Made by a program: the position numbers and the translations under genes. From Lineus longissimus (Eukaryota; Nemertea; Pilidiophora; Heteronemertea; Lineidae): a DNA stretch of 64,000 nt. The DNA is taken from contig NC_088312.1 in assembly GCF_910592395.1 (NCBI RefSeq), forward strand, positions 11,346,001 to 11,410,000, in the 5' to 3' direction. Below are positions 2,811-23,858 of this stretch, one piece after another (within the stretch, counting starts at the first letter, position 1; each line of letters opens with the position of its first letter). The notes under the pieces were generated by a model that saw only the letters and a list, made by a program, of their open reading frames with translations, was not told the origin of the DNA and searched no databases.

Positions 2811-3727
2811 TTTACTGTGATTTTCTTTTCTTGGGCACTGGTCCGAGGCCACGCTTGTGACGTTTAGGTGAATTGGTGGCCGCTAGATGGCAGGTGCAGT
2901 GCATCCCACTTCCCACTTCCCATTCGCGTCTCGTTTTGAAAACAATGAAAATTTTAAAATGTTGATACCAAATTTGTGATTTAAACCCTGATAAAAGTGC
3001 GTAAGAAAGCTATAAACCTGTTTTTCGATCGCTTTGGTATGCTAGGTTTCCTTTGATGTGATGAAAATTACCGAGCAAGCCATTGAAGATGAATGTGCAG
3101 CCGGTTAAACATCAGCTTCTCATCTCGACCCTAGGCCTACAAATGTACATGAAATGATGCATCCCAAATATGTATTTGTGACTGAAGTGAATGAAAAGTA
3201 TTTGTATTGCCAATTGTATTTTGAAACTCATCATTTAGTGCTTTTTAGCTGGTACCTGTATTGTGGTAAGAGGGTAGCTATCCCCTTTGAAAGTTGAAGA
3301 TTTGACCACGTCCACAGTACAGACCATGATAGATAGGCCTACAGGCTCGCACAGGCCCCTGAACTGAAGCCTAGTCAGCAGGATTATCAGGCTAAACAAT
3401 GGGATAAGCCATGAAAGGAGCTATGATCAGGGGCCTGTGCACAGACAGCCCCAGTGCGCATGCCGAAAGCCAACATTCGAAGAAAAAGCCAGTGAAGACA
3501 GAAATGAAATGAAGCCACAAAACTGTCAGGACTCTCACTTTTTTAGTGGGTGGGTCGTTCATCATTGGAGTTAGTTGGGCAGACTTCCAAGTGTGTATAA
3601 CATTGTATGGATCATTGGCCTACCAATCCCATGGTCCATGGATCCTTAAGGGCTGGGCATACAGTACATGTATCTTATCAGTGTCTCTGATGCCACATTT
3701 GTCATTCTCCACCAATTTTTCAGGGGG

Positions 3728-3748
3728 ATGTTGGCCACCTTTTGGTGA
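3728..3748 (+). promoter_or_regulatory. Upstream ORF overlapping the gene A start codon
   Basis: The exon opens after the acceptor TTTTTCAG at 3723. Its first ATG (3728) starts a six-codon ORF, ATG TTG GCC ACC TTT TGG, whose TGA (3746-3748) overlaps the main ATG at 3748 as TGATG. That is a classic layout for termination-reinitiation control. Gene B has a short ORF, also starting ATG TTG, in the same place. Confidence 0.6.
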
Positions 3749-4407
3749 TGATGAGAGACGAAACCATGCCGGAGTCGCAAGAGGAAGAAAGTAGTCCTGC
3801 CGCATCGGCAGCAAACACAAATAATATGCAGATGGAACTGCATTCTAAGGGAGCTGTGCTGACCAAAGCCTGGGCTGACCTGTTCAGTTTTTTAACGCAG
3901 TATCAGGCGGAACTGACTGTGAAAGAAAATGCTGTGGAAATGGCGGAACGGGAGATCAGTATTCGTAAAAAGCAGCTCGAAGACATGAAACCTGTTGTTG
4001 ATGTTGGAAATGATGAGGTTGTTAGATTGCAGGAGTTGATAACAAACAAAGAAAGACAATTACACAAAGTGCAGTCAGACTCCATGATCAATGAACAAAT
4101 GTTAAAGCGTGTACAATCAGATTTGACTTGCAATCAAGAACTAGTTGAAAAGTTACGAAGTGAACTTCTCGAAAAACAATCGAATATGGTGCGATACAGA
4201 AATGACTTGGATCGATATAAGTCTGATTTGAGTATAAAGGAGGAACAGATTCAAATTAAAGACAGTCTAATGAAAAAGATGCAAAATCAGCTGATGAAGG
4301 AAAACACTGAACTCCGTGATCAGTTGGAGTTGGAAAGAAGGGCACATGAATTGGAAAGGAAAACACATGAAATTACCAAAAGACATTTACGTGATAAGGA
4401 GAAAAAG
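3748..4407 (+). CDS. Gene A shared exon 1: N-terminal KG motif and coiled coil
   Basis: This encodes 220 residues in phase 0, starting MMRDETMPESQEEE. An acidic/serine start is followed by the family motif around residues 27-60 (MELHSKGAVL, then an aromatic/leucine stretch ending YQAEL). Residues about 70-215 form a long coiled coil rich in K/E/Q/L, with a 14-residue repeat (two heptads) whose units look like NEQMLKRVQSDLTC. No DNA-binding or enzymatic motif is present; I infer dimerisation. The start is taken at the first ATG in the open frame (3748, or 3751 next to it); homology with gene B begins there. The exon ends at the donor AAAAAG|GTAATA. It is about two-thirds identical by eye to gene B exon 1. 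Confidence 0.88.
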
Positions 4408-4750
4408 GTAATAATATGTCAAATGGAACCAATAGTTCTTACTCTCATGACCCACTTATTTTATTGCAACTTTTTCAGCCCCTATTTCCATACTCTCATT
4501 GCTTGATGTGTGAAGTGATGGATGTTCTCACTGGCTTGAGTATCTGGCAGGTTTTTATCAAAAGTTGTTTTTTCTCTCAGTACCAAGTGAGCTTCTGCTC
4601 TCACTGATGAGCAGAAGCTCACTTGGTACTCAGATTTGGAATGTACAGTGTTGATTTCTACTGATATAAACAAACACTCGACAAAATAGATAATGAAAAA
4701 GATGATATCTTTTCAAAAGAAATTTGAATACGAACTGCTGTATTTTTCAG
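4408..4750 (+). other. Gene A intron 1
   Basis: GT...AG intron between the two shared exons. It contains a perfect 22-bp palindrome (4579-4630) and nothing else recognisable. Confidence 0.8.
4579..4630. repeat. Perfect 22-bp palindrome inside gene A intron 1
   Basis: The arm starts AGTACCAAGTGAGCTTCTGC, has an 8-base loop, and is followed by its exact reverse complement ending GGTACT. In the pre-mRNA it would form a stable hairpin within a 343-base intron. Confidence 0.9.
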
Positions 4751-5305
4751 AAATCTTCCACTGTATCTCAAGTAGCTGTGAGTGACATACAAGAGCCTAG
4801 TCCACCTCTTGACCTCTCCGTCTTGGAACCAGACAACTTCGGAATCTCAAACATTGTTAGCTTGTCCCAATCACCAACACAAGAACCTCAACAGCGAGCC
4901 CAAGAATTGTCTCCAGATTCGTCGAGCGGTGTCGATTTCAAGGTGGAAGAAGAAGAAGGTGACCAGAGATTTCGGTGGCAGACGACTGATCGTTTGGACC
5001 GAAAATCTAAATACTCTGACTCTTCCTATGATGAACAATCACAAAAATTTACTGTTATGAGTCCAAAAAGAATAAAAGTTGAACCAGAAGCCGCCGAAGA
5101 GAGCGAAGTATTCTTTCCACTAACAGTGTCAGACCATGACACACTGAACACTTCACTAGCTGATGATCTGACAATCCCTGCTCAGATGCCAGGCACCCCT
5201 AGCTCAGGGACCAGTGACAGTAATCCGGGCCCTGTACCGATATCAGGCCCGATCCCGAGCACAAGCGCACTTGTAATGCCCCCTGGTGCAGAGGGCGCTG
5301 AAAAG
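4751..5305 (+). CDS. Gene A shared exon 2: acidic, Ser/Pro-rich linker with PLDLS motif
   Basis: This encodes 185 residues, phase 0 at both ends (acceptor TATTTTTCAG at 4750; donor GAAAAG|GTAGGA at 5305). Near its start is SPPLDLS (4802-4819), an exact PxDLS match to the CtBP corepressor-binding motif. It also carries FKVEEEE and RIKVEPE, matching the SUMO consensus (hydrophobic-K-x-E). The C-terminal part has MPGTPSSGTSDSN and PVPISGPIPS, both conserved in gene B exon 2. The exon is predicted disordered and probably carries repression/interaction signals, linking the coiled coil to the terminal DNA-binding exon. If the donor is not used, translation adds VGITVLSFSWC and stops at 5341. Confidence 0.87.
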
Positions 5306-7653
5306 GTAGGAATCACTGTTTTAAGCTTTTCTTGGTGTTGAGAGTTTGCTGTGCATGGGGGGGGGGGGGGGGTTACTTATGTTGAGGACCAGATCTTGAA
5401 ATATCTACATGTAGTCTCCATCCGAAAAATGAGATTTTATTGTTGGGATATTGGATCCTGAATTGAAAGTGGTTGTCTCCGCAGTGAGAAAAATACTGTT
5501 AAGTAGGGATTTTTTGGTCGACTTTTCTGCCTCTGTCGGTTTGTGACATCTTCCTCTCCAGGAATGAATATTAAAAAGATTTTGTTGTATTTGTACTCAA
5601 GTCGGATCTTGCCAGAATCTAAAAAGCAGCAAGCTCTCAGCACTGGCCTGAATATGGCATGTCACAATGAGGTCGATTGATCAATTTGGTCAATTGTCTA
5701 CATTAATTCCAAATAAAATACATGTTCGTAACGAAAAAGCTCTTTGGAGAGAAAAAGCTTACAACTTGTAGAGCCCTGTACACCTGTATTGCTCCCAGTC
5801 ATACATATCGGATATATATCACCGTTGCATTGGTTTATAATAGGGGCTGCCAAGTACCAGAGAAGTGAGGCCTTATTGTAACGGATCACAGACATGGCTG
5901 ATGACTGAACTGACTCCTTTCAAGAAAAGAAAGAGAGTGCATACAGATTTTGAAAATTGATTATTTGCATGCTAAGAAAGGCATCTTATTGTGACATGCC
6001 GTGGACAGATAAGATGATGTTTAAAAATCATGGTAGTAATATTAAAGCCAAGTAGCCAACTTGTCAATAAGTTACATTTGGCTTAATCAACTATACATAG
6101 TACATGTACATGTACATTGTGACATGATCTGCATCTCCTTATGTGGGAGCATCTTACATGTAAAACCGTACATGGCTGCAACGCTGTCTTTTATGCAATC
6201 AATGGAGATGATACATGCTATGCTGCGATACTATAAGCATGTTGATGCATTATCATACATAAAATTTTCACAAGGTACATGTCAATGTATAAAAATGTAA
6301 AGTGTGTGTGTGTGTGCATGGTTTGAAACACTAACCAATAGAGTGGTGTAGAATTGAGATACATTCCTTGAAGATGATCCCTGCATGCTGCCCCCCTTCT
6401 TATGTTGATGATGTGAATGGGATTGTGATTGATCAGAGAGGAAATACATACATGTATCTGAAGGACATTCTCCCGCCCCAGCTATTTATTTCAGATCTGA
6501 GATCGTCATGAAGTGGTGTTACACATACTTTCCGTCACATGTATGATTTGTACATGTACACTCTCCGTCCAATAGCCAATAAAATTCAGATAGTACAAAC
6601 ATGTGCTTCTATGTATAACAATACTGAACTCCTTCAAGAATGGTTTTAGGGATAAACTTACAGAGAACTGATAGATAAAACATACAAATGTAAGTCAAGA
6701 CAAATGAGGAGACGTCCATCTTGGTGGGAATATTGCAACATGGCCCTGTCATTAGAAACCGCTACAAATTGAACTTGGGGGGTGGGAGAGGGGTGAATTT
6801 TGTACGAGTTATACATTACCCCACTATTTCGTGCGCCTTTGTCGTTATCAATCAAAGCAATAGAAACAAAAAGTCATCGCTATGAATTTTCCATACGCAA
6901 TTTTCTGATTGGAACTGTTGGCAACGGTGTTCATTTCTAAACTTTCAAAGATGACATTTACATGTTCTTCCTGGCATTACTTGCACTCGGCTTTAATACA
7001 GAGGTTTTGATTGGTACAGGTAATGGGTGCCAACACGACGACAGCACACTTCACAGTTTGTGATTTTAGGGCAGATTTACCTCCATTTTGTCATTGAGAT
7101 TCTGGCAGTCTTCAGTTCTGTTTTCTGTGTTCGGAACTTCTTCTTAGTGACATGGCAATCCCCTTATTACAGTTTTCATTGTTGGTGCAACATGTCAAGG
7201 TCCTGCAGATGTATGAATCTACGATACAACGTAGTGTACATGTTCGTGTGGGGTTCTGTTGGTTATGGGTTGATGCTAGATTCCACCATTTTGGCTAGAA
7301 CTTGAAATCTAAAAGCAATTAAAACTCATTCAAAACGTAGAGAATGCTCATTTGAAGGGTGGGAGTCAGTTCTTTGTTTTCCAGCCAACAGCCTCCCAGG
7401 TTTTAAAAGGGCATTCACTTCATTTGGAAGGAGTTCTAATTAATTTTGGATTTCCGGTTCTCGCCAAAATGGTGGTACCTATTGCCTTGAACCCTTATAG
7501 GTTTGCTTTGCGGTGTATTTGTCATTCAGTTGTACAGCAGTCTCTTTGGAATAGGGAGAATATTTATAATAAGGCAAAATGATTCGGAGAGATCCTGATA
7601 AATCTTTTCTCTCATCTCACTCTCTGTCACCTGGTCTTGTTTTCTGATTTCAG
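5306..7653 (+). other. Gene A intron 2 (to first terminal exon)
   Basis: No coding exon was found. The intron includes a 16-base poly-G run (5357-5372), a short GT run near 6301, several TGTACATGTAC-type motifs near 6100, and a dispersed repeat copy at 7276-7490. Confidence 0.6.
7276..7490. mobile_element. Dispersed inverted-repeat element (copy 1)
   Basis: Starts near CCACCATTTTGGCTAGAA and ends CGCCAAAATGGTGG, so the termini are inverted. A second copy is at 31282-31487 with the same internal order (AGCAATTAAAACT, TTCTTTGTTTTCCAG, TCATTTGGAA). It has no coding capacity and looks like a non-autonomous DNA element. Confidence 0.7.
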
Positions 7654-8025
7654 TTTGTAACTAAGGCCAATAGAAGTAGGAAATCTGTTATTTGGCCCGA
7701 GTCGCGTCAGATACCTTCTATTGCAAACAAGACATGGAATTGCCTGATATGTAGCAGACGTTGCAGTAGCCAGCAAAGTTTCCTTTCTCACGCCCGTTCT
7801 CACACTAGACCATACAATTGTGGATTCTGTAGAAAAGGCTTTTCACTGAAGTCCAATCTTACAAGACATTTACGTATTCATACTGGGGAGAAACCTTACA
7901 CTTGTGATATTTGTGAGAAGGCTTTCTCGGATGCCTCTGGATTTAAACGTCACATGGCGACCAGACATCAAACTGATAAATGCTTGAAGAGTCAAACCTT
8001 GTGTTACCGGTATCATAAAGACTAG
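7654..8025 (+). CDS. Gene A terminal exon A1: three C2H2 fingers
   Basis: The acceptor TCTGATTTCAG ends at 7653 and the exon is open in phase 0 for 123 codons to TAG at 8023-8025. It has no ATG near its 5' end, so an ATG-based gene search would miss it. Fingers: WNCLICSRRCSSQQSFLSHARSH (here with C in place of the usual aromatic/F), YNCGFCRKGFSLKSNLTRHLRIH, and YTCDICEKAF...FKRHMATRH. Only the second and third are joined by TGEKPY. The tail is short and basic. It would be joined to shared exon 2 to give about 528 aa. Confidence 0.85.
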   Translation, partial: FVTKANRSRKSVIWPESRQIPSIANKTWNCLICSRRCSSQQSFLSHARSHTRPYNCGFCRKGFSLKSNLTRHLRIHTGEKPYTCDICEKAFSDASGFKRHMATRHQTDKCLKSQTLCYRYHKD

Positions 8026-8447
8026 AGGGTATAAATTAACATTTGGACATGCGAACTCATGAATGTGAACCTGCACATGTAGAATATGTACCATGCGTGG
8101 TCAGTGCATTCTGACTGAGGTAGAAACCTATGTCTTGTGTCTGTCTAAAATGTGAGGATATTCTCTCAGGCAATGCACTGGTAATGGTATTTTCAGGAGA
8201 AACTTGATTGTCAGTATGTATCGTAATTCACCAGTCGCCTGTATAGATATGTATTTATCCCAGATTTGTGTTGTAATCATCTTCCAAACTCCAGAATACA
8301 CTTGTTAAGGAACATGGATAACCTTCTTGACATTTTGTAACACCATTTCAACCCTCCCATGCACTGTGATGAAGGCATCCTTCAGTAAATTTTCAAAACC
8401 TTAGATTGACATCCAATTTTGACTTGGTCCTCTTCTTGCCTTTTCAG
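8026..8447 (+). other. A1 3' UTR / intron before A2
   Basis: Non-coding; nothing recognisable beyond an AT-rich stretch and the A2 acceptor TTGCCTTTTCAG. Confidence 0.5.
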
Positions 8448-9104
8448 AATAGGGGTTCTGAACTGGAAGATGGAGTGACTGGCGTCTGGTGGTGCGGGTT
8501 GTGTTCAAAATTCGTCGCCAACAAAATTTCTCTCGCGTCTCATGTTAAGGAATGCCAGAAGAAAAACAAACCTTTTCCTAAAACTGAGTCTGCGCTCATA
8601 ATAACTATGGGACCTGATGGTAAACAGAAGTCTGTTGTTGTCGAAACAAAACAAGTTGGGCCAGAATGTTCAAAATCTTATAAATGCGACAAATGTGGAA
8701 AAACGTTTGCTACTCATTATGGGATAACGTCTCATGCCAGAGTTCACGATACCAACCCTTTTAAGTGTGGTAGATGTGGAAGCCGCTTCATCAATGAGAG
8801 CTGTTTGAATATGCATCAGAAAATCCATCTTCCGTATCTGCATAAATGTCTGGAATGTGGGAAAGATTTCAGCAGTAAAGGCCGGTTGAACTATCATTCT
8901 CAAGTGTACCATCCAGGGAAGGTGGCAGCGTACCGTTGTACTCCTTGTGGGGAAAGCTTCGCCAGTCGACGCGAGTTGTCTATCCACACCCAGGTCAAAC
9001 AGTGTGGTGACAAGCGAGTCCAAACATCTCCAAATATGAGTACCGGTACATGTAGCTCAGCCAAGAAGTGTACCCAGTCTTTTAAGTATCCCGATAGGAA
9101 CTAG
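8448..9104 (+). CDS. Gene A terminal exon A2: five C2H2-type fingers
   Basis: Acceptor CTTTTCAG at 8447; open in phase 0, 218 residues. A first, atypical C2HC finger (WWCGLCSKFV...LASHVKEC) is followed by a 40-residue spacer, then YKCDKCGKTF, FKCGRCGSRF, HKCLECGKDF and YRCTPCGESF fingers. The last ends HTQVKQC, a C2HC version. Linkers are not TGEKP. The C-terminal tail is rich in T/S/K. It belongs with A3 in finger style (long linkers, C-x2-C then x-x-F) rather than with the TGEKP-type exons. Confidence 0.87.
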   Translation, partial: NRGSELEDGVTGVWWCGLCSKFVANKISLASHVKECQKKNKPFPKTESALIITMGPDGKQKSVVVETKQVGPECSKSYKCDKCGKTFATHYGITSHARVHDTNPFKCGRCGSRFINESCLNMHQKIHLPYLHKCLECGKDFSSKGRLNYHSQVYHPGKVAAYRCTPCGESFASRRELSIHTQVKQCGDKRVQTSPNMSTGTCSSAKKCTQSFKYPDRN

Positions 9105-9109
9105 TCTGA

Positions 9110-9640
9110 TACAGTGCTGGACCTCAAATGACAAACTATTTTCTGGAATACTTTTCGAGGAAGCGTTCTTTGTCAGCTCATAATAAAACACAGGAGGTCG
9201 AGGAGACTCGAGGTTTCAAGTGTGAAATGAAATCTGGAGAAAAACTTACCACACTTCTTAGAGATTGTCTTCACATTTGCAAGAAAACATGATACTTCTT
9301 CTAATAAGTGTGATTTGTGTGAGCTTAGTTTCAGTACCATTAATGGTTTGGACAGTCAAAAAGCACAGCATACAGCTTCAGAATCTTCAAGTTCTGCGAA
9401 AAAGTGTGAGATTTGTTGGCAGACAGTCGGTTTGAAAATTCATCATTCAAAGGTTCATTCAAAATCACGCAACTCGCATAAAATTGATAAATGCCAAAGA
9501 CAGAAGTTTGCTGCTGAAGGTGATTTATTATTCCATCAATGACCCATCATATTGTTAATCTCTATGGTGCCAACTATGTTTGAGCAATGAATTTAGTCTG
9601 TCTTGTCATCTCCAGACACACAGCAGGCGATGACCGCCAG
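9110..9640 (+). pseudogene. Decayed duplicate of terminal exon A3
   Basis: Bases just after the A2 stop align with the interior of A3: TTTCGAGGAAGCGTTCTTTG here versus TCTCGAGCAAGCGTGCTTTG in A3, then TTTCAAGTGTGAAATG versus TTTCAAGTGTCAAATC. Later pieces read KCDLCELSFSTINGL, KCEICWQTVGLKIH, EGDLLFH and, in another frame, CQLCLSNEFSLSCHLQTH; these correspond to A3 fingers 7, 9, 10 and 11. Frame changes and stops (for example TGA after DLLFHQ) break it. It is a partial, frameshifted copy lying between A2 and A3. Confidence 0.8.
9182..9187 (+). other. Candidate polyadenylation signal for isoform A2
   Basis: AATAAA lies 78 bases after the A2 stop. It sits inside the decayed A3 copy; the intact A3 has AAGAAA at the aligned position. 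Confidence 0.5.
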
Positions 9641-9786
9641 TTACATACAGTTCATCATGCCGATGTTACAGGACTCAGTCATGGCTCAAACTTTCCTTAC
9701 ATACAGAATTTCTCTTCTTGTGGATTTAAACCCTTTGTTCTAGCGACAAATTTTAACAGAGGAATACTTGTAATCTATAATAAGTA

Positions 9787-9968
9787 TACAGTAGAACCTC
9801 CCTTAGCGGACACCTTTCTAATAAGGACAACCTCTCTATTAAGGACGCTAGTTTTGGTCCCAAACTGGTTGTTACCATTCAATTTGACCTCTCCCATCAG
9901 GACACCTCTCTATCAAGGACAGCATTTGTCAATCCCAATGGTGTCCTTAATAGAGAGGTTCTACTGTA
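9787..9968. mobile_element. Short inverted-repeat element, family ACAGTAGAACC
   Basis: Termini are ACAGTAGAACC and GGTTCTACTGT, with internal inverted runs CTCTCTATTAAGGAC / GTCCTTAATAGAGAG. The same family recurs at 11996-12084 (part), 13555-13720, 19798-19962, 31740-31906 and 37362-37490 (part), with a degenerate copy near 31085-31245. It is a small non-autonomous element. Confidence 0.85.
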
Positions 9969-10117
9969 GTGAAATCTCTCAGCAGCAAAGTCGAGATGAA
10001 TTTATGCAAGGCATTTAGTGATGTTACACGACATTAGGACATCCCCCTTCTGATGATTATATTTGGAACTTAATGTCAAAAACTTGAATTTAAAGACCTC
10101 CTATTTTGCCTTTTCAG

Positions 10118-11242
10118 CCTGGAGTTTCTCAGGTGAAGGAGGCAGATTCTCACGACTGGTTCTGCAGTTTGTGTGGGAAATGTGGAAATGGCAAGGAGTC
10201 TTTCCGGCTGCATCTTAGGCTGTGTGCGCTAGAAAACAACAAGCAGATAACAGGTTCTGAAACAGACATTATGCAGTTTATGGTTCCGTTGGATTCTTGT
10301 AAATCACTAGTACAAAATGAATGCGTACCAGGCGTGTCTGATCGCGATCTGGTAACTACTATGTGTAATGAATTCGTGTCAGATAGTGACTTGGTAACCA
10401 CGTGTATGTGTGAATATTGCGGACTCGTGTTTGACAGTAAATCCGAATTAACAAACCATTGCATGGAACTCCATTCCGACACTAAGAGACACAGATGCGA
10501 ATTTTGCGGCTATACCTTCTCGAGCAAGCGTGCTTTGACAACGCATAAGAAAACACACGAGGAACCTCTGGGTTTCAAGTGTCAAATCTGCAGTAAAAGT
10601 TTCCGCACTTCTCGAGGATTATCCACGCATTTTGAACTAAAACACAAGATTTCAGGCTCTAATTATCAGTGTGAGGTCTGTCGCCTAAGTTTTCCAACTT
10701 TATGCAGTTGGAAGACTCATTCAAAAGCCCATCACCCGACGTCAGAATCGCCCATCACTTACAAGTGTGAGCTCTGTTGGCTAAGTTTTGCTAATTCTCA
10801 GGAATTGTCCTCGCACATGGAACAAAGACATGGTTATTTTATGTGTGAAGTGTGTCGGTTAAGCTTTTCTACTTCTCAGGGATTATCCTCACATTTGGAA
10901 CAAAAACATGGCAATTATAAGTGTGAACTCTGTCTGCAAAGTTTCGATACTTTGCGTAGTTTGAAGAATCATTTAAAATCACATGATCCAATATCGGAAT
11001 CTTATAAGTGTGAGGTGTGTGAACGTAATTTCAGTAGCACCGCTGGTTTGAAGGTTCATTCCAAATCACATGAAACGTGTAAAGTGCATAAATGTCGACA
11101 GTGTGGACAGGTATTTGATGACGAAGGCGATTTGCTTACTCATGCAATGACGCATCATAATGCTCCTTGTCGATGTCTACATTGTGGACTATGTTTTAGC
11201 AACGAATACAGTTTAGTTTTGCATCTACGGAAACACACATAG
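10118..11242 (+). CDS. Gene A terminal exon A3: eleven C2H2 fingers
   Basis: Acceptor TTGCCTTTTCAG at 10117; open in phase 0, 374 residues, and the longest terminal exon. The first finger is C2HC (WFCSLCGKCG...LHLRLC), followed by a 50-residue spacer and ten more fingers: CMCEYCGLVF, HRCEFCGYTF, FKCQICSKSF, YQCEVCRLSF, YKCELCWLSF, FMCEVCRLSF, YKCELCLQSF, YKCEVCERNF, HKCRQCGQVF and CRCLHCGLCF. Several fingers are near-duplicates (RLSF/WLSF types, ending LSSHxEQxH), indicating recent internal finger amplification. Linkers are irregular, not TGEKP. The stop comes right after the last histidine (HLRKHT). Confidence 0.9.
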   Translation, partial: PGVSQVKEADSHDWFCSLCGKCGNGKESFRLHLRLCALENNKQITGSETDIMQFMVPLDSCKSLVQNECVPGVSDRDLVTTMCNEFVSDSDLVTTCMCEYCGLVFDSKSELTNHCMELHSDTKRHRCEFCGYTFSSKRALTTHKKTHEEPLGFKCQICSKSFRTSRGLSTHFELKHKISGSNYQCEVCRLSFPTLCSWKTHSKAHHPTSESPITYKCELCWLSFANSQELSSHMEQRHGYFMCEVCRLSFSTSQGLSSHLEQKHGNYKCELCLQSFDTLRSLKNHLKSHDPISESYKCEVCERNFSSTAGLKVHSKSHETCKVHKCRQCGQVFDDEGDLLTHAMTHHNAPCRCLHCGLCFSNEYSLVLHLRKHT

Positions 11243-11995
11243 CACAAGTTCTCATGTAGCGCAAATGTTTGACTCGGAAAAATCGCTGCCTGACAGTTTT
11301 TCAGTAGTACATGCAGTTTGCATTTGTTTCTCTATGTACAGCATCAATGTAGAAATCGAGGAGAGATATTCCCTCGTGAAATGGATTTGTTTCCCGATGC
11401 CCGATGCAATCGAATGATCTCTTTAGATGAGTCCCCATAAAAGGCTCAAGCATTTCTGGTTTTACACTACAGTGTTGGTAGTGCATTGAAGCTTCAACAT
11501 GTGAAGCGTTCACTTTATTTGGATACAAGCTTTTGCACTTCAAATTCAAACAATGTTTTCTTTTGTTTAGTGAGTTTTAAAAGGAGCCCATATAGGGTTA
11601 AAATTGGTAGTCTTCATGTGAATAATACAGCTGATGACATACTCATGTTTGATTTGTGCTTTATTTACACAGAAAAGCATGCTGTGTAGTAGCTCAATCA
11701 AAAGCTTTTATACAACTTATCAAGGATGTACGCAGTCTATGTAGCGTACAGACACAACTTGCTAATATCAATGTTGGCATGTAAAATTACCCACACTAGA
11801 AATGTCATATAAGGTATCGCAATGAACTAATTTTCGAATGCGCGTATAAATGATATCAAATTATTTTTAATTCAAGTAGTTAAATATTTAAACTGATTTG
11901 TTTTCACCGAAACTCCCCCTCCTAAATGGAATATGTGATATGTAGAATTTACGACCCCCATGTTCATACACAGGAATCCACTTATTGGTCAATAA

Positions 11996-12084
11996 TGTCA
12001 TAACCTCCCTATTAAGGACACCTCTCTAATACGGACACCAATGCCCAGTCCCATGAGTGTCCGCAATAGAGAGGTTCTACTGTA
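11996..12084. mobile_element. Truncated ACAGTAGAACC-family element
   Basis: CTCCCTATTAAGGACACC near 12005 and the right end GAGGTTCTACTGT near 12083 match the family. The left terminus is degraded. Confidence 0.7.
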
Positions 12085-12117
12085 TATATTAAACATACGT
12101 ATTACTGTATTATGTAT

Positions 12118-12592: not shown

Positions 12593-12985
12593 CCCTACAC
12601 TGCACTCTCCCTGAACTTCCCAAACATGAAAGTGCGCGCATGGTCTTGTTCCGATTGCGGTCGGCTCTGTAATAGCAAGAAAAAGCTGGATATCCACCGC
12701 AGGATGCATACGGGAGAGAAACCTTACAAGTGCACCTTTTGTAAATGTTGGTTCTCACAGGAATGCAACATGAAAAAACACATTCAACGACAGCATGGCC
12801 CACAAGCTTTGGACAATTTGGCCAAAATAGAGCATTTCGGGTCGTCTGATTATGACTGGCCTCCCATGGCTGCATCGCAGGAGAGTGTTGAATGCGAACT
12901 CTGCCACGAAATATTTTTCGATGCTGAAGTGTTCCATCAGCACATGACAGTAGTTCACCAGAGAGTGCTGTTGACCACAACTTAA
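12593..12985 (+). CDS. Gene A terminal exon A4: three C2H2 fingers
   Basis: Acceptor TTTTACATTTTCAG at 12592; open in phase 0 for 130 residues. Fingers: WSCSDCGRLCNSKKKLDIHRRMH, TGEKP linker, YKCTFCKCWFSQECNMKKHIQRQH, then a 33-residue spacer and VECELCHEIFFDAEVFHQHMTVVH. The third finger is isolated and less canonical. The tail ends LLTTT. Confidence 0.87.
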   Translation, partial: PYTALSLNFPNMKVRAWSCSDCGRLCNSKKKLDIHRRMHTGEKPYKCTFCKCWFSQECNMKKHIQRQHGPQALDNLAKIEHFGSSDYDWPPMAASQESVECELCHEIFFDAEVFHQHMTVVHQRVLLTTT

Positions 12986-14797
12986 CAGAATTGAGGGCTC
13001 TGTCATCAGACACAGCCTCTTGATTTCTTGCCTACACTGACGATCGTCCTGTACCGCAACAGCGCAGTTCCCTTTCCCTGTGAAAGTGTTACTACCTGTT
13101 CTTCTAAAGGATCTTCTAAACACGTTCGCTGCTGAGCTACGAATATACTCGAAAGCTGGTTCCTGCTCCATTGCCGAGGTACGAGTATATTCGGAGCAGT
13201 CTATGCAATATTCCATGTATTGCAAATGACTGGCAAGGGTGAATACGCTTCCGTTCTGTAAAGTATCATGGGATATACATTTATTCTAGTGTGTTTATTA
13301 TGCACTAGGTGTGCTCTAGGCTCATGGCCTACACTCGTGGTGTGGCAGTGGAGCAAAACGCAAAACCTGGTTAATGGCGGTGCGCTCAAAAAAATGGGGC
13401 GGCAGTGAACGAGTTAAAATGCTTTGAAGCTGAAAGAGTCAAAAATACTCTCCCTTCACGCCCCTTTCCTCCCGAAGTGAAAGAAGTGCCTGTTCCGTCT
13501 GCTTCAAGTTGTTACCTTGGAAACCGAGAGGAAACAAATAGCCGACAAAGAAGATACACAGTAGAACCTCTCTATTAAGGACACCCTCTGGACTGACAAG
13601 TGCTGTCCTTGATAGAGAGGTGTCCTGACAAGAGAGATCAAAATGAATGGAAACAACCAATTTGGGACCAAAACTAGTGTCCTTAATAGAGAGGTGTCTG
13701 CTAAGAGAGGTTCCACTGTACGTCTTTTGAACCCTTCCTCCCCGAAGACAAAAATGGTTTTTCAGCTTCCTTGTATTTTGATAAGATCCCTTTAGTGATA
13801 TGACACCGGTGTCATTGAACCTATCCCTCTTGTCCTGAGGGTGTACATTTCCTATTCCTACCAGAAGATGTCTTCAAGAAGACATTTCTGAAGGGATGCA
13901 ACAACTACTGATTGAGTTCGTTGATTCAGTTTAATATGAAGTCAGTATTTACGTGATTGCACACGGACTACAATACTATTGTTGTAATGATTATGACAAC
14001 AAAGGACGAATCAATAAAATAATTTACATGTAATTTGCTTTCATCTTTCAAATCGTCTTTTACTTGATGAGTGAAGTGCACTACTAAAGATGAGTCACCC
14101 TCAGATATCCAAGCCATTCCCACCACTTTCCAAGTCCAATCGATCAGATTTTCCCTTGATTTCTCAGCCCCAATCTTGCCCGGTTCTCCTGCATTACCAG
14201 TAGTACTGTATACTACACTCATAGTTGCATTAGACAGGTACACTTGACAGTACCATTACATCTGAGTGTTTCCATGGTTACGTGTTGTTAATGGTCCTCA
14301 TTATTTATGTGGGTATGTGTATTCAAGACACTAGAGCAGTACTGTTGTGTAGGAGGTACGTGTACTTTCTTGATTCACTGGCAGTTCCCTATTAACCCCT
14401 TGAAGTACAAAAGATATCAAAAAGAATATAGATATCAGAAAGTTTTGCATGGATAGATTCCAGGAAGAAAAAAAAGGGATGCAAGTCAATAATGGCAAAA
14501 AAACAATATCAGTCTGAATATCCTGGACCACTACCTACTGTATTATAATTATCAAACTTTGGGAGCATATAGTCCGAGTGTGTAACATGATAAGGCATCC
14601 GAAAACCAGAGATAATTTTATTTCAGACTTGATAATCCGAGGGGTGGGGGATAAGGTTGGCTGCCCATTTCAGATGAAAGTGATGTAAAGCCTTGAACTT
14701 ATTTTGTAGATTCAATTACTGCATTGAGAAGTTAGAAGAAAAACCCCTACGTTATTTTGGTACTGGCAATTGAACCAACCAATTTTTGTTTTTGCAG
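12986..14797 (+). other. A4 3' UTR and intron before A5
   Basis: Non-coding. It contains the inverted-repeat element at 13555-13720 and a candidate AATAAA at 14013-14018; otherwise nothing recognisable. Confidence 0.5.
13555..13720. mobile_element. ACAGTAGAACC-family inverted-repeat element
   Basis: Begins ACAGTAGAACCTCTCTATT and ends AGGTTCCACTGT; inverted internal runs AGGACACC / GGTGTCC. It is a complete copy of the family described at 9787. Confidence 0.85.
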
Positions 14798-15340
14798 TTG
14801 ACAAAGGGGATGAAATATAGAACTGATACGATACCCAAGGATATTGAGGGCCCGCCATTCAAGTGTCATATCTGTGATCATGAGAGCACCGCCAAGCACG
14901 GCTTGATAGCCCACATGAGGAGGCACACGGGAGAAAAGCCATTCACGTGTCACATCTGCCACAAGGCATTCTCACAAAGTTCAACGCTCTATACGCATTT
15001 CAATATCCACACTGGCGATCGACCTTTTAAATGTTCCATTTGCGAGAAATCGTTCTCGCAGAGCTCGGCACAGAAGCGTCACATTCGTACACACGCTGGC
15101 GAGCGCCCGTTCAAGTGTTGTTTATGCATGAAGTTATTCAGCAGACGTTCAACAATGGGGGTTCATTTCCTCCACGCGCATGGCATCGAAATGAGCGAGG
15201 AACACGTACGGTTGAGCTCACTTGACCAGGTTGAACTGGTCTGTCCCAGACCCACCGGGGCCAGTGAACAATCTAGTGCTAGAGATCCGGGCAGTCAACG
15301 CACTGAAACTTGTGACAATCCATTCAGCTATCTTCATTAG
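14798..15340 (+). CDS. Gene A terminal exon A5: four C2H2 fingers with TGEKP-type linkers
   Basis: Acceptor TTTGTTTTTGCAG at 14797; open in phase 0, 180 residues. Fingers: FKCHICDHESTAKHGLIAHMRRH, FTCHICHKAFSQSSTLYTHFNIH, FKCSICEKSFSQSSAQKRHIRTH and FKCCLCMKLFSRRSTMGVHFLHAH. Linkers are TGEKP, TGDRP and AGERP, so the fingers are spaced for classical contiguous DNA binding. A 50-residue Ser/Thr/Glu-rich tail follows. This is the most canonical DNA-binding exon of gene A. Confidence 0.9.
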   Translation: MTKGMKYRTDTIPKDIEGPPFKCHICDHESTAKHGLIAHMRRHTGEKPFTCHICHKAFSQSSTLYTHFNIHTGDRPFKCSICEKSFSQSSAQKRHIRTHAGERPFKCCLCMKLFSRRSTMGVHFLHAHGIEMSEEHVRLSSLDQVELVCPRPTGASEQSSARDPGSQRTETCDNPFSYLH

Positions 15341-16316: not shown

Positions 16317-16685
16317 CTGATCTACAGCGCGCTAGAGACCCAGGACGATGATGAAAACTCGGATCCACCTGTGCATTTTGCGGCGGCAGAAAACACGTGC
16401 AGGATTTGCGGAAAGTGGTTCAAGTTCCCAAATAGTTTACTTGTACATTTGCGAGAGCATGACCATGACCAGACTAAACGTCCACTCGACCTTGCAAAAC
16501 GTCCGTATAAATGTCCAGTTTGTAATAAAGGATTTACGCAGAAGTCCCCTATTAAAGCTCACATGCGGATACATACCGGAGAGAAACCGTACCAGTGTTT
16601 GAAATGCGGCAAAAGGTTCCGCCAGAGTAGTACCCTGTTACGCCACCAGAGGGACTCCTGTTTGTACCGAGCTGATAAGGATTAG
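16317..16685 (+). CDS. Gene A terminal exon A6: three C2H2-type fingers
   Basis: Acceptor TTCCTATTTTCCAG at 16316; open in phase 0, 122 residues. It opens with an acidic stretch (ETQDDDENSD). Fingers: TCRICGKWFKFPNSLLVHLREH, a 14-residue spacer, YKCPVCNKGFTQKSPIKAHMRIH, TGEKP, then YQCLKCGKRFRQSSTLLRHQRDSC, whose last ligand is C (C2HC). AATAAA follows the stop at once (16692-16697), supporting use as a last exon. Confidence 0.9.
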   Translation: MIYSALETQDDDENSDPPVHFAAAENTCRICGKWFKFPNSLLVHLREHDHDQTKRPLDLAKRPYKCPVCNKGFTQKSPIKAHMRIHTGEKPYQCLKCGKRFRQSSTLLRHQRDSCLYRADKD

Positions 16686-18606
16686 CCAGTTAATAAAACG
16701 CCTCACAGAGAAACTGTTTGTTTCTGATGAGATTAGTGTGCACTATATGAAAGCTAAAAATTCCAGTTTGCAAGACACGCAACAATCTTGATAACGATTG
16801 AGAGAAGTGTCTACAGAGAACTCAGTAGGGTCCTGATATGTCATCAAGGAAAGTCATTCATATTTTTTTATGTGTTGATATTCAGATAAGGATTGCCTCT
16901 GATTTTGGATATTTTTTCCAAATTTGTACGGTGCAAAATGATTATTGGTAGCTAGTATTTTTTTCTGAATTCTAAAAACCAAAGTGAGATTATAATGGAG
17001 TGTTTTTGTTTGTTTTAGCAAAGTGAAAAATTTGATTTGTAACTTAAAAGAACTGATGAGGACAACGGCCACTTGGCTATGTGTAATCTGTGAAACTGCT
17101 GAGTGCAAATTTAATTTCACCAAAGTATATGAAATAGGCTTGAAGTAGAGTCATTGTTGGATGATTGTAGATTAATTGTTTGTGAAAATGTCTTTTCAAT
17201 CTAGAACATTGAAGATTAACTGTACAGACATATAGCTGTAGAATATAGATGTAGAAATATTTTAAACACCATTAAATGTGCAATTTTGTAAAGTAACGAT
17301 GGCTCTGATTAGCTTAGTATGCAATTTATGATGTTCTTGTGATCCCATTACGCCATATTGAACACAGCCTTTGAAGCCAAAATGATGAGGTTGTAAAACC
17401 GTCAGTACAATGTCACTATTCCTTATAACTTGGAATAGAAAGTGAGTACAATGTCACTATTCCTTATAACTTGGAATAGCAAGTGACATGTCGAAAACTA
17501 TACATGCGACAGCAATGCATCACCTAAAACATCTTGTCATCATTTGTCTTTCCAAAACCATGTGTTGGCCATGGCAGCACTGGTTCAAGGTTCAGCCACT
17601 ACCACTTCCATGCCGATCTTCCGTCGTTACGCGTATATCCATCCTTCACCGCCGATAAACTCCCCCCTGATCGGCCGTCAGAAGGGCTGTTACTTTATCG
17701 GTAGTGTCCCTGCATTCCCTTCCTTTCCCAGGCGTCCATGTCGCAACAACACTAACATTACACTCACTCGTGGTTGTCACACGAGACACGCACTGAAAGA
17801 TATCAGAATGGAAGACCAGGTGTTCAATGAGTAAGAGTTCCAGGGATGCTGACCTGACCCAAATGCACACTGCATGTTGTATAGAAGAAGGGTAACCTGA
17901 TTCTGAGGTTGGCACTATCAATTCAGGCCATCATTCAATTACTTTGTGTCGAGCAATTTCATTGGCTACCTGTTTATTTGTATGTGTCTGACGGACTTCC
18001 CACCCTATTGTGTCAGCGGTGAAAGGAGGAGACTTTAGGATTGGCATTCACTGCCGGTAAGTCGGCATGGGATTAATGCCAAATGTGCGCTCCATGGTTC
18101 CTACAGAAAGGTTTCTGGATTTGGCAGGGAAGTGAATCAAGACGGTACAGTTGTACAGTATATAAGCATTGTATGAATACGGACTTACATTTCGTTTGAT
18201 TTCAACGCTGGTTGTCTCTCTACGACACTGGAACCCGATTGTTGCTGAAGTAGTGTTTTTGCCATAGCTCTTTTTTGGGGGGCTGGTGGTCTTGGTTTCC
18301 TTGAACCCTTGAAATTCATTTTGTGTATACTTTGCTGTTTATTGGATGGGTCTGAAGCCAGTTTTGAATGGCTACACTGTATATCAGTCTAGAGTCTTTG
18401 AAATCCCTATTATGGCCATGTGAAGATTCTGTATCCATGGTCCCTATAAATTGGTGACGACCCCCAGAGACTAATGTCTAGTTTTGAAGAATGTTCTTTG
18501 ACTATACATGTTAATTATTTGGTTCCATTATATTTCAGGGCAGCTTCCGAGAGAGCAACATTTTCATAAGAAGAGTTTATCTATGTTGCCTCACTTATAT
18601 TTCCAG
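16686..18606 (+). other. A6 3' UTR and intron before A7
   Basis: Non-coding. It holds a tandem pair of about 40-base copies at 17411-17487 (GTACAATGTCACTATTCC repeated) and the dispersed repeat at 17636-18115. Confidence 0.55.
17636..18115. repeat. Dispersed ~480-bp repeat (copy 1)
   Basis: CTGATCGGCCGTCAGAAGGG, AGTAACAG in inverse, ACACGAGACACGCACTGAAAG, CAGGTGTTCAATGAGTAA and AAGTCGGCATGG all recur in reverse orientation at 32895-33365. Open frames inside it are not gene-like. It is probably a transposable element of unknown class. Confidence 0.75.
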
Positions 18607-18912
18607 TTGGTGTCTGCCGGCATTGAGGAATGTGATGGGTCCTTGATCACTTGTCCGGTCTGTCACCTCAACTTCAACAACATGGCCCTCTTCCGCATAC
18701 ACCGAGCCCGACACTTCACCGAGATATCAAAGAAAAATAAATGCGGCCAGTGTGGGATGGAGTTTTCCCGCCGATGGTCATTGTCGAGACATATGATGAC
18801 GCATACTAATGAAAGACCTTATAGATGTGACATTTGCGGGAAACGATACATTCAGTTAGGCAATTTGAAATCTCATGAAAAATCAGTGCATGGACAGACA
18901 TGGGTAGGGTAG
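18607..18912 (+). CDS. Gene A terminal exon A7: three C2H2 fingers
   Basis: The acceptor TATATTTCCAG at 18606 gives phase 0 and 101 residues. An earlier AG at 18538 would put the frame into a stop, so the later site is chosen. Fingers: ITCPVCHLNFNNMALFRIHRARH, NKCGQCGMEFSRRWSLSRHMMTH and YRCDICGKRYIQLGNLKSHEKSVH; the last two are joined by TNERP. AATAAA at 18950-18955, about 38 bases after the stop, supports a last exon. A decayed duplicate lies about 800 bases downstream. Confidence 0.9.
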   Translation: MVSAGIEECDGSLITCPVCHLNFNNMALFRIHRARHFTEISKKNKCGQCGMEFSRRWSLSRHMMTHTNERPYRCDICGKRYIQLGNLKSHEKSVHGQTWVG

Positions 18913-18977
18913 AGATCGTTTTCAGTACATTCAGTCAACTGTTGTGGTGAATAAAATGTGTTTTAAGACGCAATCAT

Positions 18978-19578
18978 GGGTGAGGTCAAAGGTCTAAGAT
19001 AACACAAGTGTCAGGGTTAGTGTTTGTGTTAACTGGAGCCAGAAAAAATATGGTTGAAGTAAACACTGGGTAAACACTGAGTTCACTATAAGTTAACACT
19101 CGGTCAACACTGAGTTAACTCCAGCCGTCTCTAGCATTTCAAAATGTGTTATAATCTGCGGTTGCGTCCTCCAAGTCTTGTTCGATCAGACAGAGACTTG
19201 CTTGTAAAGTGGTTCTTCTGAAGATGGGTGGTCCTTTGGAAATTTTCATGGCGAAAACCAGCCACAGCTTGAATCATTGGTCTGAAAACATTACTGCCTA
19301 GTTAACTCTGAAACTTGACCTCAAAAGTGTTAACTCAGAGTTAACCTCTAAGGGTTAGTGTTAGCCTAATGCAATTCGTAATACAAATTTGTCTGAATAA
19401 CTCCCGATGCTCTGGTTAACTCAGAGTTAACTCTGGGTTAACACTAACTCCAGTTCCGAGAAGTGTTAACTTCGGGTTAACTCGGGGTAACTCAACACTT
19501 TGTCAAGGGGACAAATGGGGTTAGTGTTTAATAGTGTTAGTGTAAACTCTGAGTTTACTTATTCTTTTTACCTCACCC
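18978..19578. mobile_element. Foldback element dense in GTTAAC motifs
   Basis: Ends are inverted: GGGTGAGGTCAAA at the left, TTTTTACCTCACCC at the right. The interior is an unusual array of GTTAAC / AGAGTTAACTCT-like palindromes and GTTAGTGTT / AACACTAAC runs in both orientations. There is no coding capacity. Confidence 0.75.
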
Positions 19579-19714
19579 GTTGTAGAATATAATTATTTGG
19601 ATAATAATATGTAAAAATTTTCAAGGAGCCCTCATGTACGTCACTGATGCATGCGGCAGAACACTTTACTATTAAAGTACACTGTTACTTAATGAATTCT
19701 TATGTAAAGAGTAT

Positions 19715-20035
19715 CAAATATGGTATGTAGTCTTCCACCGATGGTCTTTGTCCTGACGCATGATGATCAATACTAATGGAAAAACATATACAAATGTACA
19801 ATAAAACCATTCACTTTAGTGTCACCCTGAGGGCTGACAAGTGCTGTCCTTGATAGAGAGGTGTCCTGATTAGAGAGGTCAAATTGAATGGAAACAACCA
19901 ATTTGGGACCAAAGTTAGTGTCCTTAATAGAGAGGGTGTCCTTAATAGAGAGGTTCTACTGTAAATGTGGTGTTTGTGGAAAATGGTACAATCAGTTTGT
20001 CAATATGAAATCTCCTGAAAATCAGTGCAGGGCAT
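19715..20035 (+). pseudogene. Decayed duplicate of terminal exon A7, split by an inserted element
   Basis: CACCGATGGTCTTTGTCCTG, ATGATGATCAATACTAATG and ATATACAAATGT match A7 (CGCCGATGGTCATTGTCGAG, ATGATGACGCATACTAATG). After the inserted element the match resumes with AAATGTGGTGTTTGTGGAAA and CAATATGAAATCTCCTGAAA against the A7 finger 3. The frame is broken by indels and by the insertion at 19798-19962. Confidence 0.85.
19798..19962. mobile_element. ACAGTAGAACC-family element inserted in the A7 pseudo-exon
   Basis: Left end ACAATAAAACC (mutated), right end GGTTCTACTGT. The flanking AAATGT is present on both sides (19792-19797 and 19963-19968), consistent with a 6-base target duplication inside the finger codons for Y-K-C. 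Confidence 0.8.
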
Positions 20036-20917
20036 TGCCTTTGAGTTTGACCGACTTCTAGCATTGCCGCACGTCACTGGAGTTGGTAGCCTCGCACTCG
20101 TTCCCTTGAAAATCATACCAGTAATGGTTACAATGAGATGTATTGAATAGTTGGCACCAATAGCCATCAGAATGTGTTGTTACAGAGTTCAGTGTTGTGA
20201 TTAGGAAGATGCTATACATGCTTCCCGAAATTGGTGGCTTGCATTGGAACTAACTTTTCCCCCTTGTCCGTCATCAAAGGCATTCAAGTGTGTTGGTCAA
20301 CCATGACTATCTCCTTTGTCCCTCCACCATAAGGCCTAGTTTCCCCTTATGACATCACTATTTCGGACACCAGCGCCCCATTTCTGGAAAGGTGTATACC
20401 GGGGCTAAGTCACATTTTGACAGAATTAAGTTAGTAACTTTTTCTAACACTAGATGGCCCTCCGCACATTTTCTGCACAAGTTTCAGCATGTAGTGAAGT
20501 GTATAAAATAAACTATTGGCACTAGAATGTACTATTTTAAGGGCCGTGGAAATAAATAAATTCAGTGTTTTTGCCATTTTTCTCAAAATGGACAAAATGT
20601 GACTTGACCCCCCTTATGGCATTTGGTTCCTCACTTGTGAGTGTTACAATTAGGATTAAAATTGTAGACTCTATGTGAAAAAAATAATATATTCATCTGT
20701 ATATCTATTGTAAGTTGTGAACAATGAACTGTCAATAAATTTGTCCGTGGTGTATTTTTGGTGATAATGGTATACTCTAGATCCATTATTCTGTGATCAT
20801 CAGATGGATACTGTTAGGTCTATCTTGTTTTCCTGCTTGCTTTTCTTTCATACCGAAGTGAGGTACTGGTTATCTCACCAAACACAGAGACTGTGGAACT
20901 AAAATGGAGCCAGAACC

Positions 20918-21158
20918 TTAAAGGCCTACACGGTTCGTTAAAAATTTTGAATTTGTAATTGAATTTCATAATGTCCAATTGCGGAAATGCGTACTAACTA
21001 TAAATTTCACCATTGCCGTTGTGTAGACTGATATACAAATACTATGAATACTAAGTTTCAACAAATTTGTATTCACAATAACTGCACTATGACATTGTGT
21101 ATTAGTGGATTTCTATTTAATTTGACCACAAGTAATTACGAATGGCATGCCCCTTTAA
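20918..21158. mobile_element. TTAA-flanked MITE, family AAAGGGGTACGCCGTTCGT
   Basis: Left TTAAAGGCCTACACGGTTCG, right ACGAATGGCATGCCCCTTTAA, with the shared interior (GAATTTGTAATTGAATT, GTGTAGACTGATATACAAAT, GTGTATTAGTGGATTTCTA). TTAA ends suggest piggyBac-type mobilisation. Other copies: 21373-21602 (reverse), 28126-28354, 33746-33990, 36332-36572, 54917-55150. Confidence 0.85.
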
Positions 21159-21372
21159 GTACTTTACCAGCTTGGGAGAGAAGACACAGCTCCATGCATC
21201 CAAAGGAATGTTTCATGAGACAACCAATGCCTCCATTTTGATATCAACATAGCAAACATTATTGAAGGGTTATGTAATTTTTCCCCTTAACATAAATTTT
21301 AGACAATGATTACCATATATGCCAACCCAAGTGGTTATAGACTTGTGACATCAAAACTATGTGCACTGAAGC

Positions 21373-21602
21373 TTAAAGGCGTACGCTGTTTGTAATTACT
21401 TGTGGTCCAGTTAAATAGAAATCCACTCATTCACAATGCCGTAGTGCAGTTATTATGAAAACGAATTCGTTGAAACTTGGTATTCATAGTAGGTCTACAC
21501 AATGGCAATGGTGAAATTTACATTTAGTGTGTGTTTACGCAGTTGACGATTTTCAAATTCAATTACAATTTCATTTTTTTGACGAACAGCGTTGGCCTTT
21601 AA
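21373..21602. mobile_element. TTAA-flanked MITE (same family, opposite orientation)
   Basis: The interior is the reverse complement of the copy at 20918 (TAGAAATCCACT, ATTGTGAA/GTAGTGCAGTTATTATGA). TTAA at both ends. Confidence 0.85.
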
Positions 21603-22284
21603 ACGAGGCCTAATCCAACATTGAAAACAATGTAACCAAGGTGTTGTGAAATGGATCCCTTGTATAAAGTTCAACTTTGCTAAACATATATGTCACTACC
21701 TCAATTAATGTAACTTGTGCAATGGTAGAAGGATCTGAAAATGAGCGTAAAGATAAAACCATTCATTTGTTATGCACTTGTAACAAAGATATATGGAAAT
21801 GTGAAAACTTCTGCTTGCTTTGACAATGAGTTTAAACTGCGTTATTTCCTGCCACTAGCTGTTTAAGATCGGAGATGTAAAACCTGGAACGGTTTACTGA
21901 ATTGTAGATAAAATACAAATGAAGAATGTGAATTTATCATGATGTAACAATAAAAGATTATTGTTGAATTTTTATGTTCTTCAATTTTTTCTCTACATAA
22001 AGCGTCTAAGCAAATTTCGGTTCCTCTGTACATCACCAGACGGCACTGTCTCTCTTTGCATTTGAGTCTGTTATGAGAAACTTCAAGGCTCTTGGGAGTG
22101 TCTTAATCTTTGGCACCAATTTAGGTTGTTGCTTTGGCCTGGGGACAGAGTCTTTTCTTGCCCTGGGAGGAGTCCACCACCAGCTACTGTCAACCCGTCC
22201 TGTGGAAATCTGCCCCTGGATGGACTAAAGCAAACATTTCCCTGGTTTCCTCAGGAAATGCTCTGTACACTTGCAGATGAGGTC

Positions 22285-22490
22285 TTAAAGGGGGACTATA
22301 GGCAGGAGCAGAGGGGCTAATTTGGCCATCTTCAGTTGACTAGTATACACAGTAAGGGCCCTTGGTCATGTCAGATTCAGCACTAAATATATTCCTTGTA
22401 CAAGCATGAATGAGATGTGAGAGACCCCTATTGGCAACTTTGTGTAACTTTATCTTGCCTGCCAAGCTGCTGCCTATATTGTCCCTTGAA
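22285..22490. mobile_element. TTAA-flanked MITE, family AGGGGGACTATAGGCAG
   Basis: Starts TTAAAGGGGGACTATAGGCA, ends GCTGCCTATATTGTCCCTTGAA. Other copies are at 23855-24076, 32125-32346 (reverse), 37776-37993 (reverse), 41237-41420 (diverged) and 49244-49464. TTAA target sites point to piggyBac-type transposition. Confidence 0.85.
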
Positions 22491-23604
22491 ACTTGGTAGC
22501 ATCAGGTACTAGAAACCTCTCTTATGTCCCATATAAAGGACAGACGTGCCTAGCCCTTTGAAAGTGCCTGGAGGTATCCACTTTGCAAGCATCTGATATT
22601 GAAACCAGAAGTGGAGTTTTGAGCATTGAAGCCAAAGGCTTGACTACACACACCACAGGTAGTGCCAATGCCACACTAAGGAATTCACTTCAAACCACTT
22701 GCTCCCTCAAACCGCCTTTACAGACCCCCACGGGATCGCAGGAACTTAATGACCACCCTGAGAGAACTGAAATCCTGAACTCCGGGTTCCGAGGCGTCTG
22801 GTATTCCTGTATTCCGAGTCCTTCTATGGTTTCCTTGCAATAATGGCTCTCCCATGGCATGCCTGAATTAGGTAATATTTAACGGACGCATATATTCAGA
22901 TCTAGTGATACTTGGCCTGCTACGGGCCGATTTCAAACACCACATCTCTGCTTGGCCGGCGTGACGAAGCAAAAAATCGCAAACAAACATGAACATCAAA
23001 AGCTTTTCACCTATTGCGCCTATCGGACGGAACCTTTAATGAGAAATTTCAACTATCATGTTCCCCAAGATCCCTTGATCTGAATGCACAAGTTGAATTA
23101 GAACTTTAACCCGTCTTTGAAGGAAGGGCGTGCTGTTTCGAGGGACTCGGAATTCAGGAATACCAGACGACTTGGAACCTGGACTTGGCACTTGATGCCC
23201 GTAGTTCAGTATTTTGATTCTCCGGTGTGATGAGACTGGGGAATAGCTTGGAAAATGATCAGTCACACCCGCTTGCCCATCATTGTTGCTTTATCTGGAT
23301 TCAAACAAGCAGTCGATGCGGGTACCCAAATCCTGAAGTATTGGAACAAGCCAACAGAGCACAGGATAGGGGATGTACAAAACCAGGGACTGGTCACACT
23401 TGCCAAAACCCATCCTGACTCTCATGCGTTTGCGTCACCACTATCAAGCTCCACAAACTACTTCCCTGGGCCAAAAAAATGGCTTCCGAGGCGGAAAATG
23501 TCAAGGATTGGGGTGAACAATTTAGCAATCTCGGAACATAGTGGGTCAAGATGGCCAAAATTGAGCCCAATTATTAATTTCCGTTTTGCCAATTGTCCTT
23601 TCAG

Positions 23605-23858
23605 ATCAACAGAACTCTTTGTAAGCATTGTGGAGTGAGTCCCCCACGTAGTTCAACAGCCTACCAGACACATCATCATCAACCAAACCTGCCTAGTTTG
23701 TCGTAAACACTTCACAGATGGAAGCAATCTAAAAGTCCATGGACGTCTGCATCACGGGCGTAATGAGGCTTCAGTGCAACCAATGCAGGAAACGTTTCAA
23801 TCAGAAAGTCAATCTGCAGCGCCACAAAAGCGACCCGTCACAACCAATTGGGTGTTAA
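23605..23858 (+). pseudogene. Frameshifted zinc-finger terminal exon
   Basis: After an acceptor TCCTTTCAG (23604), phase 0 reads INRTLCKHCG...YQTHHH and then stops. In a second frame a good finger follows, TCLVCRKHFTDGSNLKVHGRLHH, and in a third frame another, LQCNQCRKRFNQKVNLQRHK. Three fingers in three frames mean two frame changes, so this exon cannot be used as is (or the assembly has errors here). It would be the most distal gene A terminal exon. Its end abuts a TTAA-flanked MITE. Confidence 0.75.

Follow-up and report, generated by a model that had tools for sequence, protein, structure and literature searches.

Can one gene outside the insects offer several DNA-binding ends behind a single constant front? 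We addressed this question in a window of 64,000 nucleotides from the nemertean Lineus longissimus (NC_088312.1, positions 11,346,001 to 11,410,000), where a gene that we call gene A carries a series of zinc-finger exons downstream of two front exons. A preliminary description had read this locus as a non-insect relative, in its plan, of the Drosophila genes lola and mod(mdg4), and the source species is indeed a member of Nemertea. Our analyses make it very probable that gene A is one unit, in which a coiled coil and a linker with an xLDLS motif stay constant and the DNA target is set by a choice among about eight terminal exons, and that its family numbers 26 genes or more. The parts of gene A are as follows.

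3724 to 4407, plus strand: exon 1, with its ATG at 3748; predicted coiled-coil part, residues 1-220; 3724 is an acceptor-like site only
4751 to 5305, plus strand: exon 2, encoding the disordered linker (residues 221-405) and its PLDLS motif, ending at the shared donor 5305
7654 to 8025, plus strand: last exon F1, fingers; RefSeq isoform X5 (P0004)
8448 to 9104, plus strand: last exon F2, five finger matches; phase-0 open exon behind an acceptor, no isoform among the matches listed
10118 to 11242, plus strand: last exon F3, ten finger matches; phase-0 open exon behind an acceptor, no isoform among the matches listed
12593 to 12985, plus strand: last exon F4, fingers; RefSeq isoform X4 (P0005)
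14798 to 15340, plus strand: last exon F5, fingers; phase-0 open exon behind an acceptor, no isoform among the matches listed
16317 to 16685, plus strand: last exon F6, fingers; RefSeq isoform X6 (P0003)
18607 to 18912, plus strand: last exon F7, three fingers; RefSeq isoform X7 (P0002)
23605 to 23706, plus strand: last exon F8, 33 amino acids with no intact in-frame finger; RefSeq isoform X8 (P0001)

The RefSeq isoforms X4 to X8 of Lineus longissimus are 100% identical to the gene A front (3748-4407 joined to 4751-5305 at a phase-0 junction) over 405 amino acids. They diverge at donor 5305 and continue into one different last exon each, all exact letter matches to the window. This donor (AAAG/gtaggaat, with the slash at the junction) is in phase 0 and common to all gene A last exons. 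All eight of these are open in phase 0 from their acceptors, which in F1 to F7 consist of a pyrimidine-rich stretch and a CAG. The shared donor and the seven finger exons, with their acceptors, phase and own stops, were read correctly in the preliminary description. Of the seven interchangeable last exons that it proposed, F1, F4, F6 and F7 are present in RefSeq isoforms, and an eighth annotated one, F8, had escaped it. Its likening of the plan to lola and mod(mdg4) agrees with the five isoforms, as annotated models, and both the sequence and its annotation support the plan itself well.

Across six frames the window holds 46 matches to the C2H2 pattern (two pairs overlapping), against 0-1 in ten single-base shuffles. 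Those in the spans of gene A and its neighbor gene B are all on the plus strand, and the only ones on the minus strand lie in another neighbor, gene C. The gene A isoforms X1-X3 were not found among the protein-search matches listed. In nine genes checked, isoform number goes up as length goes down, so X1-X3 are expected to exceed the 535 amino acids of X4, as would the products with F3, F2 and F5 (779, 623 and 585 amino acids). By length, the isoforms with F2, F3 and F5 may be the missing X1-X3. F8 gives only 33 residues, and the finger match in its region (23690-23755) is in another frame than the annotated exon; it therefore looks like a decaying finger exon that is still annotated as used.

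Other marks of probable decay and possible duplication lie in the array. Between F2 and F3, a degraded finger-like frame (9231-9542) resembles the end of F3 by eye and is likely a dead exon copy, and decayed F7-like sequence, also recognized by eye, lies downstream of F7 (19730-20000). F8 is surrounded by direct repeats that form two pairs (22281-22490 and 23851-24076; 90-91% identical), a possible sign of segment duplication. A short repeat with ends like AGTAGAACCTCTCTATTAAGGACA has eight matches with at most three mismatches, where none is expected, and some copies are longer. It looks like a small DNA transposon (a miniature inverted-repeat transposable element) and was found here:

9824-9965, 12003-12084, 13560-13700, 19816-19960, 31776-31799 and 37365-37388: AGTAGAACCTCTCTATTAAGGACA-ended repeat, between gene A finger exons and in two places beyond

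The preliminary description treated gene A alone, yet such fronts number at least 26, gene A included. Protein searches, two of which scored only the candidates sharing most words with the query, returned at least 71 Lineus clusters (195 member sequences, summed). Grouping by shared 60-residue stretches gave 25 groups, one of which joins gene B and P0064. Of the front genes counted, 25 have isoform names in RefSeq and one, P0053, has none; a further neighbor, gene D, would be extra. All clusters except one (P0033, on a 19.2 Mb contig) are on the 23.9 Mb contig of gene A. With 23,943,388 bases, this contig fits chromosome 5 of assembly tnLinLong1.1, given as 23.94 Mb in an excerpt of its published description (PMC8593623). 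Two or more different tails were present in 19 of the 25 gene groups. The highest isoform numbers of the 25 genes sum to 152, although these are model numbers and some isoforms may differ outside the tail.

Outside Lineus, the matches listed were 17 open reading frames (ORFs) from Joint Genome Institute (JGI) metagenomes, each covering exon 1 or exon 2; our guess is that they come from nemerteans. The exon-2 ORFs that were compared run into the intron at the Lineus position, for example P0054, which is 64% identical to gene A exon 2. A four-sequence profile matched no annotated protein of another phylum up to E 0.01 among 7994 candidates sharing most words, and no relative was found in the viral contigs scanned. 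Searched against solved structures, the family profile matched zinc-finger proteins through its finger part (best 60 of 294 rows). The intron after exon 2 opens with an in-frame VGI at donor 5305, at the gene B donor 56147 and in the JGI ORFs P0054, P0058-P0060 and P0085-P0088. Because VGI is in frame in all ten, this donor may be conserved past the usual consensus.

A tree built on exon 1 mixes its 27 Lineus rows with its 9 JGI rows; there are 9 label changes, at least 8 of them forced by starred branches. This implies that many family lineages separated before the species did, while the Lineus pairs B/P0064, P0024/P0038 and P0041/P0051 look younger. Of 70 tails from multi-tail genes, 20 had their best match within their own gene, whereas 2000 shuffles of the labels gave a mean of 3.0 and a maximum of 10. 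The 20 include dependent cases, as P0016 contains part of gene B exon 61597 and P0075/P0076 probably share sequence. For five genes with one protein in view, the last 130 residues were taken as the tail. Some tails match best across paralogues (P0017 with P0041), and together with the within-gene matches this suggests that exon duplication and locus duplication both probably contributed. The four recognition positions of the fingers differ in 1834 of 2204 comparisons versus 4407 of 6061 for other finger positions (224 tail pairs, not independent). We do not claim positive selection on the finger contacts, given this dependence among pairs and a difference of only 0.63 versus 0.58 in the 16 same-gene pairs.

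AlphaFold2 was run on a 25-sequence alignment (mean predicted local distance difference test score 68, predicted template modelling score 0.31). It places helices at residues 17-79 and 88-220 with high confidence, followed by disorder to about residue 415 and then three fingers. Exons and predicted domains coincide: the helix ends at residue 220 with exon 1, the linker is unstructured, and the fingers are in the last exon. Exon 1 is predicted to form a coiled coil, and its heptad score was above that of 300 of 300 shuffles. Within the linker, conserved blocks among 24 gene representatives are VIEIPD-like (19/24), xLDLS (18/24) and FFPL-like (22/24). The first looks like a candidate SUMO-interacting motif. 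The xLDLS block is also present in all eight JGI exon-2 ORFs and reads PLDLS in gene A; it is a probable contact for the CtBP corepressor.

We propose that splicing would connect exon 2 to a single terminal exon out of about eight. Every terminal exon has a stop and presumably a 3' end of its own, and the exon would be chosen by cis-splicing and alternative polyadenylation. The coiled coil would mediate dimerisation, the disordered linker with xLDLS would offer a putative CtBP contact, and the short zinc-finger module would set the DNA target. A switch of last exon would then alter the target and leave partner and effector unchanged. The products are most likely dimeric transcription factors and probably repressors. 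The family, nearly all of it on one chromosome, would have grown via gene duplication plus gain and loss of finger exons.

Gene B repeats the gene A plan, and its front is 47% identical to that of gene A (BLAST). Its parts are listed below.

53998 to 54636, plus strand: gene B exon 1, predicted coiled coil; exact match to P0013, P0014 and P0016
55452 to 56147, plus strand: gene B exon 2, linker; donor 56147
60820 to 61362, plus strand: gene B alternative exon, encoding a CENP-B_N domain and a helix-turn-helix (HTH) domain of Tc5 type; P0016 splices out at 61305
61597 to 61944, plus strand: gene B finger exon; RefSeq P0016 runs from the HTH exon into the initial part of it
62395 to 62775, plus strand: gene B finger exon, phase-0 open behind an acceptor; no isoform among the matches listed
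63395 to 63736, plus strand: gene B finger exon, fingers; start placed by eye from a CAG acceptor; no isoform among the matches listed

The alternative exon of gene B encodes a transposase-type DNA-binding region. Pfam matches to PF03221 (E 1.1e-9) and PF04218 (E 4.8e-5), both over the cut-off, place CENP-B_N and HTH_Tnp_Tc5 domains in it, and it matches the CENP-B DNA-binding structure 1hlv with E 2.3e-11. The AGTAGAACCTCTCTATTAAGGACA-ended repeat is possibly a target of this exon. P0064 (LOC135487868), a second gene 95% identical to gene B, carries another HTH tail, 22% identical to that of gene B over 170 residues.

The remaining relatives in the window are simpler or incomplete.

43558 to 46600, minus strand: gene C, built of three exons with all fingers in one (44538-43558); RefSeq LOC135487872 X2 (P0066)
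48546 to 51225, plus strand: gene D, built in the same way with all fingers in one exon (50605-51225); model
1 to 129, minus strand: exon 1 start of a further family member, identical to P0053 residues 1-43 and divergent from gene A

Our gene C model and P0066 are of equal length (697 amino acids) and have the same sequence by eye; the gene D protein was not found among the protein-search matches listed. Both genes show the coil-linker-finger structure in three phase-0 parts, with fronts 23% (C) and 26% (D) identical to that of gene B. A front homologous over the coiled coil and a three-part phase-0 exon plan are thus common to genes A, B, C and D. The simplest story would start from an ancestor with three exons, in which copies of the last exon gave rise to a menu, and whole loci would have duplicated as well. 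Elsewhere in the window, at 35821-36228 on the minus strand, a run of arginine codons derives from a simple repeat.

Several observations weigh against our account, some of them concerning the effector. Most fronts have TLDLS rather than PLDLS, xLDLS is absent in 6 of the 24 representatives, and the alignment shows no LDLS in genes C and D (both outside the 24-gene count; FFPL was not seen in them either). It is quite conceivable, if short of probable, that the plan is as described and the proteins are not CtBP-type repressors, and that they activate, insulate or silence mobile elements. The transposase-type tails in two genes and the small-transposon-like repeats between finger exons would suit such a role. 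Nothing speaks directly against it; the motif block is, however, one of the two best-kept parts of a variable linker.

How fronts and fingers are joined is a separate matter. Trans-splicing is used by fly loci of this plan, according to an excerpt of PMC11426971, and the fronts here are related and on one chromosome, so that exchange might even occur between paralogues. We regard this as improbable: the finger matches in the spans of genes A and B are all downstream of their own front on the same strand, and isoforms X4 to X8 of gene A contain no exon from outside its span.

A set of independent small zinc-finger genes, or of pseudogenes, that follows a coiled-coil gene is a very unlikely reading of the finger exons, although some features of the array lean that way. 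The isoforms with F2, F3 and F5 (three of eight exons) were not found among the protein-search matches listed. The preliminary description had seen AATAAA near several of the exons; AATAAA or ATTAAA occurs within 300 nucleotides of the stop in only three of eight (F2, F6 and F7), and F1 has neither before the F2 acceptor. A Met precedes the first finger in F4 and F5, and in-frame ATGs lie directly upstream of the F7 acceptor. Two more points count against our account in general: F8 encodes no intact finger, and the RefSeq isoforms are computed models. By reading, however, Met is absent between acceptor and first finger in the other six of the eight. Each of the eight has an open phase-0 frame from its acceptor, and the isoforms, as computed models, join five of them to the front. 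Serial splicing into one long multi-finger protein is least likely of all, since a stop closes each gene A exon and the five gene A models have one last exon each, although gene B P0016 joins the HTH exon (at 61305) in series to the first part of exon 61597 and array exons may at times be used in this way. Separate genes and serial splicing were the outcomes that the preliminary description had named as fatal to its reading; the annotation contradicts the first for five of eight exons, and the second is absent from the five gene A models listed and appears in one gene B model, P0016.

Transcription factors that exchange their DNA-binding end through the last exon are best known among arthropod BTB genes. 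Here the same trick occurs with an unrelated front, in another phylum and at two dozen loci or more. Its repeated origin thereby becomes testable, as does its use, in cell identity or mobile-element control. A CENP-B-type domain as an alternative exon illustrates a route for new DNA-binding tails into an existing regulator. A cephalopod C2H2 study kept only the longest protein per gene, as stated in an excerpt of PMC12513265. Surveys of that design would record one factor for every locus of this kind, a blind spot for this gene plan. The preliminary description knew of no family with this plan; we found no description among the open-access papers listed in searches aimed at it, and one may exist elsewhere.

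Drosophila lola combines a BTB front with different C-terminal C2H2 fingers in 17 of 20 isoforms, in the excerpted account of PMC11426971. The likeness lies in a constant oligomerising front, alternative C-terminal C2H2 exons and many DNA-binding isoforms per locus; the differences are an unrelated coiled coil instead of BTB, at least 26 paralogous loci, and the phylum. For mod(mdg4), the same excerpt (PMC11426971) counts at least 30 isoforms, and FLYWCH domains are present in most of them. This gene shares with ours a constant front and many alternative 3' parts, whereas the tails here are C2H2 or CENP-B-like and no BTB is present. The exons of mod(mdg4) lie on both strands, and those of genes A and B are all on one.

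The front ORFs of the four genes A to D gave no match to BTB up to E 1 and none to KRAB, SCAN or ZAD; a coiled-coil front rather than BTB, as proposed in the preliminary description, agrees with this and with the predicted helices. Clusters of KRAB, SCAN and ZAD zinc-finger genes are likewise lineage-specific C2H2 regulators with a shared effector front, typically with one finger array per gene, whereas one gene here offers many arrays through exon choice. Clustered protocadherins and UGT1A also join variable and constant exons within one cluster, with the variable exons at the 5' end; here the variable part is 3'. The annotated models share with lola and mod(mdg4) the joining of constant 5' exons to alternative DNA-binding 3' exons. 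Given the missing BTB domain and the different phylum, we conclude that the family works in a lola-like way and is not a member of the lola family. Tentatively, the at least 26 fronts might also cross-pair through their coils, each with finger or captured transposase-type tails, and so form a combinatorial system in which the fronts and tails that a cell selects yield many dimeric DNA readers. If this holds, lola would have an independent counterpart of many genes in a spiralian phylum.

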